Source: a virus. Taken from it: DNA of 30,019 nucleotides. Positions 3,987 through 15,351 of the stretch are shown piece after piece. Positions within the stretch are counted from its first letter, which is position 1, and every line of letters begins with the position of its first letter. The position numbers were made by a program, and so were the translations under genes. The notes beneath the pieces were generated by a model. The model ran no database searches. It saw only the letters and a program-made list of their open reading frames with translations, and was not told where the DNA came from. The DNA lies in IMG/VR virus record IMGVR_UViG_3300005731_000028, positions 1 through 30,019 of that record, one strand, 5' to 3'.

Positions 3987-4561
3987 CACACATCACCGAC
4001 AACACGCCACTTGCAGAGCGGGTCTATCTCAAATCTCCAGACTTTAAGCGCTGGCGTCAATTCGCGATGATTAAGCAAGGCTCGGCGGCTTTTGATATTG
4101 GCTGCTCACAGGGCATGTATGCCAGATATGAAAACGGAGAGGCACCGCTTGCGTTACGGGACGCTGAAAAGCTGGTTCAGGTTATCACTGACGAGCTTGC
4201 ATCATGTGGCTTGCCGACGCCGGACTCTGGGGCGCTTTTCCATTTTGAATGTCCCACTATGCAATCGCTTCTACAATTTTGCGCTGCTCATGCCGGTTTT
4301 TCGATGGATGAAATCAAGGGCCGGTCTCGCAAAGCTCGTATCAACGATGCCCGCCAATGGTTCATGTACGCCGCATCAGCGCGCAACAAGTACCGCGCCG
4401 TCAAGTGGTCCTGGTGTCAGATAGCCCGAGTAGCAGGCCGGTCTGACCACACAACGGCTCTCTCAGGCGCAAGAGCCTATGCAGAGCGCCATAACCTTCC
4501 AGCGCCAGAGGATCGCATACGCAAGCCATGCCGCTTGCCAGAGACCGAAATTGAGTGCTAA
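3983..4561 (+). CDS. Putative replication initiator: HTH domain fused to DnaA domain IV
   Basis: The protein has 192 residues in two parts. Residues about 20-70 look like a Cro/XRE HTH (RRFAMIK-like start, then GCSQGMYARYENGEAPLALR). Residues about 93-165 match DnaA domain IV: a helix (LLQFCAAHAGFSMDEIKG), the basic RSRKARINDARQWFMYAA, and the signature RSDHTTALSGARAYAE, equivalent to the GRDHTTVLHACRKI box that contacts DnaA boxes. The DnaA AAA+ ATPase domain is absent, so any initiation activity must recruit host factors. It is followed by a long structured non-coding region that could be the origin. Alternatively it acts as a transcription factor or competitor at host DnaA boxes. Confidence 0.8.
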   Translation: MTHITDNTPLAERVYLKSPDFKRWRQFAMIKQGSAAFDIGCSQGMYARYENGEAPLALRDAEKLVQVITDELASCGLPTPDSGALFHFECPTMQSLLQFCAAHAGFSMDEIKGRSRKARINDARQWFMYAASARNKYRAVKWSWCQIARVAGRSDHTTALSGARAYAERHNLPAPEDRIRKPCRLPETEIEC

Positions 4562-4568
4562 AAGAAAT

Positions 4569-4597
4569 GGCCGGGCAGCTCGCAAAAGCTCCCGGCC
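4569..4597. terminator. Strong hairpin after the initiator gene
   Basis: GGCCGGG-c-AGCT pairs with AGCT-CCCGGCC across a six-base loop: 11 pairs with one bulged C. It begins eight bases after the initiator stop. On the plus strand no T-run follows; on the minus strand the hairpin is followed by ATTTCTTTT, so its polarity favours termination of leftward transcripts, or a processing or attenuation role for rightward ones. Confidence 0.45.
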
Positions 4598-4699
4598 TCA
4601 AAGCGGTGAAGGTTGTTTGGAGACGACTGATCCGCTTCGGAAGTTAATTGTATAGACCATTAGGTCGCAGCTTCCAAGCCTACCCTCTCCAAAAAAACT

Positions 4700-4731
4700 C
4701 TGCATCGGGCGGACGCCGAGGGTGCAGTTTT
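4700..4731. terminator. Bidirectional intrinsic terminator
   Basis: The CTGCA/TGCAG outer stem and TCGG(g)C/GCCGA inner stem close a GGAC loop, with a GGG internal bulge. On the plus strand TTTTAT follows. On the minus strand AG and then seven T's follow (the A-run at 4691-4697). Both readings fit an intrinsic terminator, and the leftward one is stronger. Confidence 0.65.
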
Positions 4732-4905
4732 ATCAAGCGCGGTACTTGGGGTTCCTGACACACCGCGCAGCCCGCTCCTAGGGTCGGAGGGCAGTCAGCG
4801 GCGCTACCTGAGCGTCGGAAGTAGCGACCACCTCAAAGCGTGCAGGAATGCGCTGCGAGGCCCGAACGTGACGGCTGGCTCCGGTCGAGCAAGATTGCGT
4901 TGGAT

Positions 4906-4955
4906 GGGACAGGAACGACTGAGAGGCTAGTTGTCTCCAGTGGTTCTTGTCCTCC
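4906..4955. ncRNA. Long imperfect hairpin, putative structured RNA element
   Basis: GGACAGGAAC (4907-4916) pairs with GTTCTTGTCC (4943-4952) with one A/G-type mismatch. Inside it ACTGAGA (4918-4924) pairs with TCTCCAGT (4934-4941) through one bulge, leaving a nine-base loop. The stem has about 17 pairs with compensating geometry, unlike chance pairing. It sits 80 bp before the next gene's start. It could be part of a phage RNA, an origin structure or a protein-binding element; nothing identifies a known RNA family. Confidence 0.4.
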
Positions 4956-5032
4956 TATGCCCACCGTTCAAGCTCCACCAGTCGAGCAGGGGGTAAGACA
5001 CAGACATCAGCTATCAATTAGGAGACTGAGAC

Positions 5033-5329
5033 ATGAGTGCTGAAACAAGAGACGAAGCTGAGCTTTGGATGATGAGCCAGGAATTAGCTGACCGATGCGC
5101 TAAAGCGGTTGCACAATCGCAAATTCAGCGGGGTAAGAGCCGAGCTTTTGGTCATACGGTTTCTATTAAGCAGTCCAATTATCAGGACGGAATGGCCGTT
5201 ATTCAGGCTATCAACAAATACATGACCGAGCTGGAAGACAAAAAAGACCTTACAGGCGATGAGCTTCTAAAGGTTTTGGCTGACGTTATGGAGCCAGAAT
5301 TCATGAACTACCGACCGGACCGCCCATGA
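5033..5329 (+). CDS. Unknown 98-residue protein in its own transcription unit
   Basis: ATG 5033 is preceded by AGGAG at a spacing of eight bases. The protein is mostly helical and acidic (ELWMMSQELADRCAKAVAQS near residues 10-29; GMAVIQAINKYMTELEDKKD near 53-72; LTGDELLKVLADVMEP near 74-89). No membrane segment or metal site is visible. It lies alone between the hairpin-rich region and another strong hairpin, unlike the overlapping genes elsewhere, so it is probably transcribed and regulated separately. Family not recognised. Confidence 0.65.
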   Translation: MSAETRDEAELWMMSQELADRCAKAVAQSQIQRGKSRAFGHTVSIKQSNYQDGMAVIQAINKYMTELEDKKDLTGDELLKVLADVMEPEFMNYRPDRP

Positions 5330-5333
5330 AAAA

Positions 5334-5370
5334 GCCCCAGCACGCCAGTTTGGCGACCGCGCGCTGGGGC
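5334..5370. terminator. Strong hairpin after the monocistronic gene
   Basis: GCCCCAGC (5334-5341) and GCTGGGGC (5363-5370) pair perfectly, and a nested CGCCA/TGGCG hairpin (5343-5355) lies inside. It starts five bases after the stop codon. Five A's precede the left arm, so a leftward transcript would end in a T-run; the rightward one would not. Likely a terminator or 3' stabiliser. Confidence 0.5.
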
Positions 5371-5402
5371 ATGAAACCCCTCACATGATGGAGAGAAATT
5401 CC

Positions 5403-7226: not shown

Positions 7227-7806
7227 GAAGAAAGGAACCCGGCTTCCAGATGATTGGCAACCTGGACCCGTTGAAATTGACTACGCAATAAGCCTAGGCT
7301 TCAAGTCTCACGAAGCACGCCGGATGGGCGAGGACTTCCGCGACTACTGGGTGGCCCAGCCGGGACAGCGTGGCGTCAAACTCAACTGGGTGGCTACATG
7401 GCGGACATGGGCGCGCAAGCAGGCCGACCGAGAGGACAAACAGCCACCACGGGAGCCGACGATGCTTGGCGAGCCTCACCACGGATCGCCCCAAAGCTGG
7501 CGCAGTGCACAAGGCCGCGTGGCCGAGATGCTTACCCGGATGGCAGAGAAGGGCTGCCCGCACGACATACTCGACAAGCTCTATACCGAAGGGTTGGGCA
7601 TTACGTATGTGAACTGCTTTAACGGAGAGGCCCCGACAGCCGTTGCAAAGAATGCTGCGTGCTGTTCGCTATGGACAAGCGCTGCATCTGGCTATGCGCG
7701 TCGGGCAGGGTATAACCGCACGATTTACACGGCGGATTACGTCAGGTGTCGCACGCAGCGGCTGAAAGAAAAGGAGGCTCAGAATGGCGAGAGGGCGCAA
7801 GCGTAA
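7219..7806 (+). CDS. Replication-associated protein, RLPDDW family-like
   Basis: The protein has 195 residues. The first 70 match the recurring tail module of phage replication proteins: TRLPDDWQPG, a helix containing SLGFKSHEARRMGEDFRDYW, then GVKLNWVATWRTWARK, normally found at the C-terminus of DUF1376 or primosome-like proteins. Here it is N-terminal, followed by a basic linker and an unrelated second part with GITYVNCFNGEAP and several cysteines (KNAACCSLW). The missing usual partner domain and reversed order are odd. A DNA-binding or helicase-loading role is inferred. The next gene starts 22 bases before its end. Confidence 0.6.
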   Translation: MAEKKGTRLPDDWQPGPVEIDYAISLGFKSHEARRMGEDFRDYWVAQPGQRGVKLNWVATWRTWARKQADREDKQPPREPTMLGEPHHGSPQSWRSAQGRVAEMLTRMAEKGCPHDILDKLYTEGLGITYVNCFNGEAPTAVAKNAACCSLWTSAASGYARRAGYNRTIYTADYVRCRTQRLKEKEAQNGERAQA

Positions 7807-8272
7807 GCTGGTCAAGCGAGAGCCTAACGGTCGCGCTCAACGGTCATCGCGAGTAGAGCCGACGCCAGAGATGGCAAAGCGCAAAGCTCGATATAACTAC
7901 GACTGGACAGACCCGGTAGCTGGATTGCAAAACGAGGGCCACCTTTCGCCAAAACAGGCAAGCGCTGTCTCGCTTTATCGGTCACTGGTGCGCTCATGCT
8001 TGCAAGGAGCCGGGCCAAGCCAGAACGTCACCGGGGCCATCAAGGACCGCGTCGGGGGTAGCGCTTTGGTCGAGTATGATGAGGGCCTGGACCTCAAGCG
8101 TCAGCGCAGTCGGAAGATTGGGCTTAGGGCGCTATCGGATGCCGGTTCGCGGGTTGATTTGGCTATTCACACACTCATTCAAACGCACGGATACCACCGT
8201 TACGAAGCCGTCGAGATTGCCAAGATCAGGAAAGGCGCGGACGCTTTGGCGAGGGTCTATCAGGGGTGTTGA
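7784..8272 (+). CDS. Basic protein of unknown function, possible late regulator
   Basis: The protein has 162 residues. ATG 7784 has the perfect ribosome site AAGGAGG. The N-terminus is very basic (MARGRKRKLVKREPNGRAQR) and suggests nucleic acid binding. The rest is helical (LSPKQASAVSLYRSLVRSCL near residues 54-73; VDLAIHTLIQTHGYHRYEAV near 123-142). It is the last gene before the candidate late promoter, the position in which lambdoid phages keep their late antiterminator. That analogy is the only evidence for such a role, since no family signature is seen. Confidence 0.6.
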   Translation: MARGRKRKLVKREPNGRAQRSSRVEPTPEMAKRKARYNYDWTDPVAGLQNEGHLSPKQASAVSLYRSLVRSCLQGAGPSQNVTGAIKDRVGGSALVEYDEGLDLKRQRSRKIGLRALSDAGSRVDLAIHTLIQTHGYHRYEAVEIAKIRKGADALARVYQGC

Positions 8273-8297: not shown

Positions 8298-8499
8298 GTC
8301 GGAAATATAGTCTGGACAATTTGCGGCGTTGCCTTTGGCGGCGTCGTTTCAGTTTGGGCCTCCTGGCGTTCGGTCTCCCTTCCCTGCGCGCTGGTTTGAC
8401 GGCCCAATTCAATTGCGCGGCCTGGCCAACATCACATGCAGGCTTATTGCCAATCAAGACCGAGAGCCGCGCTACACCTTGGGATGGCTATCTGGCTAG
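8296..8499 (+). pseudogene. Amber-interrupted or decayed reading frame
   Basis: ATG 8296 opens a frame stopped after four codons by TAG 8308-8310. The same frame then stays open for 62 codons to TAG 8497-8499 and reads protein-like, especially ARWFDGPIQLRGLANITCRL and NQDREPRYTLGWLSG. No ribosome site or good internal start is visible, and the ATG falls in the candidate -10 box. Two overlapping frames (8321-8521 and the third frame) look less natural, although the first ends in a TAATG overlap with the next gene. This is either a gene fragment left after recombination or a gene with an unusual start. Confidence 0.35.
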
Positions 8500-8520: not shown

Positions 8521-8889
8521 ATGGCTGATCGGACGGTAAAGGTGCTGGAGAATGGCCGCTTCGTTCCTCGTGGCCTCTCAATGCGCACATCGGGCCTTGT
8601 CTTGCTGTTGGATGAAGATGAAACGCTGGATGTGACGTTCAACTGGTCAAGCTGGTTAGGTGATGACACTATCGCCAGCATCACGAATGAGGCGGATGGC
8701 GTAACGGTTGGCTCTGAGAGCAACACGACCACGACAGCCACATTCACGGTCACTAATTCACCTGGAGCCGTACAGCACAGGATCACCACCGTCGGCGGCT
8801 TGATCAAGGAAGCACGTGTCTACGTCAACTCCCCTGCTGGTGGCATATCGGATGACTACGGGTTCTACAGACCTTCATGGGTGGCGTGA
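8521..8889 (+). CDS. Unknown beta-rich protein, possible virion component
   Basis: The protein has 122 residues, with ACAGGG ahead of ATG 8521. After a short basic start the sequence is strand-rich with Thr/Ser/Val repeats (TIASITNEADGVTVGSESNT, about residues 56-75; TTATFTVTNSPGAVQHRITT next), typical of Ig-like or fibre-type virion domains, and ends in an aromatic tail (DDYGFYRPSWVA). It precedes the terminase genes. I would expect a decoration or accessory virion protein, but no family is recognised. Confidence 0.6.
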   Translation: MADRTVKVLENGRFVPRGLSMRTSGLVLLLDEDETLDVTFNWSSWLGDDTIASITNEADGVTVGSESNTTTTATFTVTNSPGAVQHRITTVGGLIKEARVYVNSPAGGISDDYGFYRPSWVA

Positions 8890-14250: not shown

Positions 14251-14643
14251 ATGACTACCCCTGCTCGTGAGTATCACACTCAACAGCTCCACTATCTGCG
14301 CAAGGGCATCACCTTCGCCGATATTGGCACCACCGTTGATCTGGGTGTTGTCCCGGCTGGCGCGATTGTTGACAACGCCTATGTGCTTGTCTCGACCGCG
14401 TTTGATTCCGGGTCGACCGACATCCTCGACATTGGCACGTCGGCTGATACCGATGGCTTTGCTACCGATCTGACCCTTCAGACCGCTGGCAAGATTGCTG
14501 CCGATGAACTGGCTACGTCTGATGACCTTGGCCCGTACTCCGCAGATACTACCCTGCAAGCTGTTCTCGTTGCCACTGGCACGGCAGCTACTGCGGGTGC
14601 TGCGGAAGTCGTTGTCACGTTCATCCCGGACAATGACGGCTAA
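14251..14643 (+). CDS. Capsid decoration or head-fibre-like protein
   Basis: The protein has 130 residues, with AAGGAGG ahead of ATG 14251. It is Thr/Ala/Gly/Asp-rich and strand-forming (GITFADIGTTVDLGVVPAGA, about residues 17-36; AIVDNAYVLVSTAFDSGSTD next), ending VVVTFIPDNDG. Proteins of this kind directly after an N4-type coat gene usually sit on the capsid surface, and the fold resembles a small jelly-roll. The assignment rests on position and composition. Its stop abuts the glycosyltransferase ATG with no spacer. Confidence 0.65.
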   Translation: MTTPAREYHTQQLHYLRKGITFADIGTTVDLGVVPAGAIVDNAYVLVSTAFDSGSTDILDIGTSADTDGFATDLTLQTAGKIAADELATSDDLGPYSADTTLQAVLVATGTAATAGAAEVVVTFIPDNDG

Positions 14644-15351
14644 ATGAGGATCGCCCTGCTAACGCCCAGCCGCGATGGCAGGGCGCACCTCGATCATAGT
14701 GAGGCCATAACGGACACGCGCATTGAGGCGATCCGTCGTGGCATCCAGCTGAAGCGGTATGTGGGGAAGGGATCAAGCAACCTTCCCCGCAACCGTAACC
14801 TTCTCGCCGCCCAGGCTATCAAGGATGGCGCGGATGTTCTGATCTGGATTGACTGCGATATTGCATTTGATCCAGCCGATGTGTTTCGGCTTGCTGAGTC
14901 TGAGTGCGACATTGTGGCGGCTCTGCCTCAAGCGCGCACGCATAACTATGGCGAACCAGCCCGTATTGCGGGCATCAACGTACAACGCGAAGCTGACGAG
15001 ACGGGCTATCATCCAGCCGATGCGGTTCCGACAGCCTTTATGGCGGTCAAGCGGGCTGTGTTTGAGCGGATGGCGTCTGAGGGTGTAGCTGAAAACTTCA
15101 TGTGTCCGGCTTCGTCAAAGGAGCTTTGGCCGCATCTGCATAACTGGTTTTTCTATCGCCTGAGGCAGAGCGATACGGTTCCCGGCATGTTGCAAGACGA
15201 CGCTGAGGACTACTACTTCTGCTGCAAGTGGCGTGAGATGGGTGGCAAGGTTCATGCCGCTCCCGATATTCGCCTGCATCATTTTGAGGGCCTTGTGAGG
15301 CATTCGCTTTGCTTTGCTGATGTGTGGAGTGTTCAAGATGGCGCTAACTAA
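14644..15351 (+). CDS. Glycosyltransferase-like protein (GT-A fold) in the head module
   Basis: The protein has 235 residues. The N-terminal strand MRIALLTPSRDGRAH leads to VGKGSSNLPRNRNLLAAQAI and then VLIWIDCDIAFDPADVFRL, where D70-C-D72 is the DxD sugar-nucleotide/metal motif after a hydrophobic strand, as in GT-A (family 2-like) enzymes. A later HNWFFYRLRQ and DDAEDYYFCCKWREMGGKVH segment resembles the acceptor-side ED-Y-F pattern of this group. There is no membrane segment, so it should act in the cytoplasm on a soluble target. Its place between decoration and connector genes suggests it modifies a virion protein. The acceptor and sugar are unknown. Confidence 0.75.
   Translation: MRIALLTPSRDGRAHLDHSEAITDTRIEAIRRGIQLKRYVGKGSSNLPRNRNLLAAQAIKDGADVLIWIDCDIAFDPADVFRLAESECDIVAALPQARTHNYGEPARIAGINVQREADETGYHPADAVPTAFMAVKRAVFERMASEGVAENFMCPASSKELWPHLHNWFFYRLRQSDTVPGMLQDDAEDYYFCCKWREMGGKVHAAPDIRLHHFEGLVRHSLCFADVWSVQDGAN

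Follow-up and report, generated by a model that had tools for sequence, protein, structure and literature searches.

The phage P4 CI and P1 c4 immunity RNAs use short direct repeats as recognition sequences, for which their own locus also supplies a complement. In the bridge RNAs and omega RNAs of transposons, short variable words specific to the element are set in a conserved scaffold, and the int-alpA RNA of Rfam sits between integrase and alpA genes. Another Rfam entry, RF02932 (Betaproteobacteria-1), is a small RNA (sRNA) of 120 positions for which we know of no function, and a literature search on it found no paper. Here, we analyse a 471-bp gap (positions 4562-5032) in the IMG/VR virus record IMGVR_UViG_3300005731_000028, a stretch of 30,019 bp with P22-like head genes that is called the window throughout. 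The gap almost certainly encodes a structured non-coding RNA, judged from comparison with relatives, and belongs to a family that is defined here. An earlier note on this DNA had offered a structured RNA or a replication origin as readings of the gap; the first is borne out by homologues, by covarying helices and pseudoknots, and by conservation far above that of the flanking genes.

Comparison with described RNAs

As matched in L112/L150, L152, L153 and L154, RF02932 has the same order at the 5' side as this RNA, namely a hairpin (S1) with the loop GG.CGG..AC.GCAGC, a short linker and a helix (S2) with GGUACUnUGGG. It differs in that it spans only the first third of the RNA, and the pseudoknots PK1 and PK2, the long hairpin S7 and the direct repeats X (Table 1) lie outside it or are not modelled. 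Among the family members, L154 (34.1 bits), L152 (28.1), L153 (24.6) and L112/L150 (21.9) match RF02932, all under its gathering cut-off of 49.4, from model position 1 and in the same register with S1 and S2. A further match, in G098, falls inside a member found independently by one of our covariance models (R2, below). Because of these in-register matches and the overlap in G098, RF02932 most likely corresponds to the 5' part of the RNA, and its membership of the same superfamily is very probable.

The S1 of the window is without the RF02932 loop motif and the window does not match this family even at an E-value of 10, nor was RF02932 found in 369 gammaproteobacterial genomes. The window and the other members searched were also without match to any other Rfam family, among them group I/II introns, RNase P, transfer-messenger RNA (tmRNA), riboswitches, GOLLD, ROOL, HEARO and int-alpA, and ARAGORN predicted no transfer RNA (tRNA) or tmRNA in the window. 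The earlier note had been unable to place the gap in a known RNA family, which holds for the window itself but not for its relatives, through which the link to RF02932 is made. An orphan Rfam entry of 120 nucleotides (nt) is thereby probably extended to an RNA of about 300 nt that has three pairings over long range and a variable word in two copies.

Like the P4 CI and P1 c4 RNAs, the RNA is carried by mobile elements near immunity or early genes and contains short direct repeats, but it lacks a consistent internal complement of X, the window lacks TGCTCGAC, and there is no Rfam match. With bridge and omega RNAs it has in common the conserved scaffold with short element-specific words, but no transposase or nuclease is linked to it, X is a direct repeat rather than a pair of guide arms, and the RNA, at about 300-430 nt, has another fold. 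The integrase and excisionase-type helix-turn-helix (HTH) neighbours of L153, L154 and L171 are reminiscent of int-alpA, but no searched member matches that family.

Homologues and conservation

The family has 16 members in total, found on phages, a prophage, integrative islands and a 17-kb plasmid, with hosts that are mostly Alphaproteobacteria at class level. A homologous non-coding stretch was detected by blastn in L082, on a 38-kb contig whose terminase shares 75% identity with the window's; the genes upstream are unlike those of the window and an HNH gene follows the RNA. This contig (JAESPR010000015.1) is binned in a Colwellia genome, yet the window's relatives in genomes are otherwise alphaproteobacterial. 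L106 was found with a pattern made from shared motifs, and a core pattern recovers both L106 and L140. A covariance model of three sequences (R1) confirmed L140 and detected L112/L150 (E 3.4e-7), which belongs to a genome of the Alphaproteobacteria. A search of 357 alphaproteobacterial genomes with the model of five sequences (R2) added six to the one already known (E 2e-27 to 1e-6), and 340 gammaproteobacterial genomes gave no solid match outside the one holding L082. Further members came from blastn with L153, which led to a 17-kb Pseudosulfitobacter plasmid (pDSM107133_i), and from model R3, which added four (E 4e-32 to 2e-26). The weakest member is L156, in which the S2/PK1 part is unrecognisable and the core, S7 and X repeats can be recognised. 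Blastn of the gap region against phages and plasmids gave chance matches only, protein searches with the DnaA-domain gene and a 98-aa gene returned no relatives, and literature searches yielded nothing on this RNA. Two candidates were discarded: all 13 matches elsewhere to the pattern GGTACTYGGGGT..GTAGCGA were due to chance, as was the match in L111.

Upstream of the gap lie a GcrA homologue and a gene for a protein with HTH and DnaA C-terminal domains. L106 shows the same arrangement (DnaA-domain gene, RNA, homologue of 5033-5329), and the RNA block (4560-4991) is 91.2% identical between the two over 433 columns. The flanking genes reach 27% and 57% at the nucleotide level, and their products, the DnaA-domain and downstream proteins, 34% and 51%, respectively. 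Either the RNA is under far stronger constraint than its neighbours or it has recently moved as one piece. The gap is non-coding, where the earlier note had named a conserved protein frame in relatives as evidence that would tell against its reading: all six frames are closed by three to five stops each, the longest open stretch is 88 codons, and single-base gaps are scattered through the alignment with L106.

Secondary structure and pseudoknots

All six inverted repeats that the earlier note had listed are present in the gap. The note had described one of them as ending in T-runs on both strands, and such runs are seen at CTGCA..TGCAG (4700-4727), where the + strand has TTTTAT and the - strand TTTTTTT. 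The stretch 4803-4829 includes the inverted repeat CGCTAC/GTAGCG. The note had also suggested folding both strands, and the gap is more stably folded on the + strand than its dinucleotide shuffles (z-score -3.46, 0/100 shuffles), with no clear excess on the - strand (-1.51, 9/100); the core 4695-5003 folded alone reaches -2.14. Stability favours the + strand in 10 of 12 members. In a scan of the whole window, 4561-4680 and 4861-4980 rank among the best-folding stretches. The gap is not unique, as 14581-14820, within predicted genes, folds as well (z-scores of about -4.9 on + and -4.1 on -). Folding energy by itself is modest evidence, and it is the comparative evidence that decides.

Part of this evidence comes from permutation tests, which for PK1 shuffled the 3' strands among members; the windows of the strongest tests were anchored by hand on conserved motifs. 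Such tests can be inflated by kinship of the sequences, yet the members are very divergent, and the sequence of S2/PK1 is different in nearly every one. Across 10-15 members, S2, PK1, PK2, PK3 and S7 are supported (Table 1), so that the check for covariation proposed in the earlier note came out in favour of the RNA. The central trait of the fold is that S2, which encloses a G-rich loop, is crossed by PK1 with S3 in between, and the window has it (GCGCGGU/ACCGCGC, CUGAC/GUCAG and GCCC/GGGC). The strands of PK1 vary yet always match, as in CUGAC/GUCAG, GUAUCA/UGAUAC, GCGACC/GGUCGC and GCGGUC/GACCGC. PK2 was the top helix in an unguided scan of alignment columns, and its permutation result went from 32/50000 to 0/50000 with more members. 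In S7 of L106 an A-U pair is changed to G-U, which pairs in RNA. The four members found last agree with the fold. S3 and S8 reached no significance in the permutation test, a loose one in the case of S3.

Table 1. Positions of the RNA and its parts in the window; fractions are permutations.
Feature	Position	Strand	Sequence or remark
Putative promoter	4535-4564	+	TTGCCA-N18-TAAAAG; read by eye, missing from the list of a promoter scan
Whole conserved RNA block	4560-4991	+	conservation with L106 fades near 4991; 3' end tentative
H0, 5' hairpin	4569-4597	+	GGCCGGGCAGCTC..GCTCCCGGCC (GGCCGGG..CCCGGCC); T-rich stretch after it on the - strand
S1 hairpin	4700-4727	+	counterpart of the RF02932 5' hairpin in other members
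PK3	4716-4749	+	CCGAG 4716-4720 (S1) with CUUGG 4745-4749 (S2 loop); 3/50000, 10 members
S2 helix	4737-4768	+	GCGCGGU 4737-4743 with ACCGCGC 4762-4768; 133/20000 and 23/50000
PK1	4755-4798	+	CUGAC 4755-4759 (S2 loop) with GUCAG 4794-4798 (beyond S3); 0/20000, 0/50000, 0/50000
S3 hairpin	4770-4792	+	GCCC/GGGC, 15-nt loop; by inspection in 9/9 members, loop 15-16 nt
PK2	4782-4829	+	GGUCG 4782-4786 (S3 loop) with CGACC 4825-4829 (after conserved AAGUAG)
S5 hairpin	4832-4859	+	CUC/GAG and AGCG/CGCU; ACUC/GAGU in L082
Conserved core	4860-4883	+	GGCCCGAA..GACGG..GGCUCCG, the last at 4877-4883 ending the core
X1, first repeat copy	4884-4891	+	GUCGAGCA, directly after GGCUCCG
S7 long hairpin	4906-4955	+	covaries, 0/20000; folds in all members; conserved UAUGCC just 3'
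Conserved motif 5' of X2	4973-4980	+	CUCCACCA
X2, second repeat copy	4981-4988	+	GUCGAGCA, 97 nt after X1

The direct repeat X

Every member, including the window, carries a word of 7-11 nt twice, with X1 after GGCUC[CG]G and X2 after a CACCA-like motif (YNMCCA). The word is near-identical within one RNA and different between RNAs, with a rough consensus A-N-R-R-G-C-R being kept; examples are ACAGUCAU (L082), AAGGGCA (L140), AUGAGCA (L151), ACGAGCGGA (L153), UUGAGCG (L156), GCUAUGGRUCA (L166) and AAGAGUAU (L171). Within molecules, X1 and X2 share 102 identities compared to 56.5 +- 6.0 expected, a value reached in 0/50,000 permutations. L166 was not scored in this test as its anchor was off by one, and in register its copies read GCTATGGATCA/GCTATGGGTCA. 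The spacing between X1 and X2 is 84-87 nt in eight of the first ten members and 94 and 97 nt in the other two. An internal complement of X was not found in a consistent place across members. Pairing of the S3 loop with X fitted the first four members and failed with more, the S3 loop pairing instead as PK2, and the idea that X forms part of a nearby tRNA was likewise rejected, as no such match was found.

Genomic neighbourhoods

In L154, L171 and L153 the gene immediately 5' of the RNA is an HTH_17 gene of excisionase type, with a tyrosine integrase nearby; one small open reading frame (ORF) intervenes between HTH_17 gene and RNA in L170, and L172 has an integrase upstream. The cargo after the RNA comprises type I restriction genes in L154 and L172 and bacteriophage exclusion (BREX) genes in L155 (BrxA by Pfam), and several islands share the order integrase, excisionase-type HTH gene, RNA, restriction or BREX genes. 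Since both phages and islands with restriction or BREX genes carry the RNA, it may act in the maintenance of elements or in conflict between them. The RNA of L140 sits in the immunity region, head-on to the repressor gene, and that of L166 runs head-on into parDE.

The L154 island is flanked by two tRNA-Arg copies. In L162 (2390-11702), two copies of tRNA-Arg(CCG), likely to be attL and attR, enclose an integrative island that measures about 9 kb and carries the RNA along with genes for an integrase, HTH_17 and type I restriction. In both L162 and L174 the order is integrase, an ORF of about 190-290 aa, HTH_17 and RNA. As this order recurs in different genomes, these islands are possibly one undescribed alphaproteobacterial island family. 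In L140, palindromes (GGCACAAA..TTTGTGCC) and GGTACAA repeats at 430-500, 5' of the RNA, resemble repressor operators.

Possible function and alternatives

The explanation that we prefer, and for which we see an even chance of being right as a whole, is that the + strand of the gap encodes a conserved, structured RNA, some 300-430 nt long, that uses X to recognise a partner and is carried by mobile elements, mainly in alphaproteobacterial hosts. The RNA would be transcribed from its own putative promoter just after the DnaA-domain gene and would act in trans, with the two exposed copies of X recognising an element-specific partner, either nucleic acid or protein. This could control gene expression of the element or its relations with the host or with competing elements. 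Action in trans is favoured because L140 and L166 have a convergent gene after the RNA, which shows no need of a downstream gene. The narrower claim that X is a recognition word for a partner in trans is tentative. It is rather doubtful that the RNA is a programmable, guide-like molecule, in which a scaffold of three pseudoknots displays the same 8-nt word twice for pairing with a target particular to each element, and is retargeted by changing both copies of X. What the copies of X recognise, and why both must match within each RNA, are testable questions that the duplicated word raises. Several points weigh against the trans-acting explanation: TGCTCGAC, the reverse complement of X, is absent from the window; X did not match the tRNAs near three members; the X pattern shared by the members found last may partly reflect a model built on X-bearing members; and the cargo genes of most islands lie downstream of the RNA on the same strand, which would also suit a cis-acting leader.

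Such a leader of the downstream operon (attenuator, processive antiterminator or ligand-sensing element), with X1 and X2 as alternative or cooperative sites in the nascent transcript, is the main rival, although we consider it unlikely. The next genes are on the same strand in the window, L106, L082, L151, L154, L155 and L172, the next ORF of L154 even starts at X2, and the RNA has regulatory or integration genes on one side and cargo or late genes on the other. However, it faces the convergent repressor of L140 and parDE of L166, the lack of a common theme downstream save a tendency to defence genes, and a search for two competing internal pairings of X that found none. Improbable, too, are X1 and X2 as processing sites that release the intervening segment as the working product, which in most members would be 84-97 nt long and consist of S7 with CACCA at its 3' end. 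The near-constant spacing and the conserved anchors GGCUC[CG]G and YNMCCA 5' of both copies would fit, but a word that varies among members makes a single host enzyme with one specificity unlikely, and no RNase gene consistently accompanies the RNA. A bridge-RNA-like arrangement, X1 being the guide and X2 the flanking target at the 3' edge of the element, would explain why conservation with L106 stops just after X2 and why X is identical within and variable between elements. It is nevertheless very unlikely, given that no transposase or nuclease is linked, X retains a consensus, similarity runs slightly beyond X2 (GUAAGA), and no empty site was found.

An origin, proposed in the earlier note and pictured here with hairpins working in single-stranded DNA, is more improbable still. 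The gap does adjoin a gene with a DnaA C-terminal domain and has hairpins and short direct repeats, but it contains no DnaA-box-like site (TTWTNCACA, at most one mismatch), the count in the window is below chance, and most relatives of the RNA have no replication or DnaA-domain gene alongside. PK1-PK3 and the bias to the + strand indicate RNA, and GC skew of the window was not decisive. A last reading takes the hairpins and terminators as accidents of leftover non-coding sequence. Other parts of the window do fold equally well, but 91% conservation beside proteins of 34-51% identity and covariation over 10-15 members reduce this to a negligible prospect.

Other features near the gap

A hairpin is also found at the place of H0 in L082 and L140, and just 5' of H0 in four phage members (the window, L106, L082 and L140) pairs of TTGCnA-N17/18-TA-rich elements could be read by eye. 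A second non-coding stretch of the window (8321-8472), just 5' of the gene 8521-8889, is 79% identical to L106:4325-4480, with a neighbouring protein (7784-8272) only 32% identical to that of L106; an Rfam search with this stretch gave no match. Several hairpins near the gap resemble terminators of leftward transcription, though no leftward gene lies to the right. Among the conserved hairpins is a G+C-rich one 3' of the 98-aa gene (5333-5371; L106:1795-1830), with a T-run on the - strand (GCTGGGGCTTTTTCATG), as at H0 and S1.
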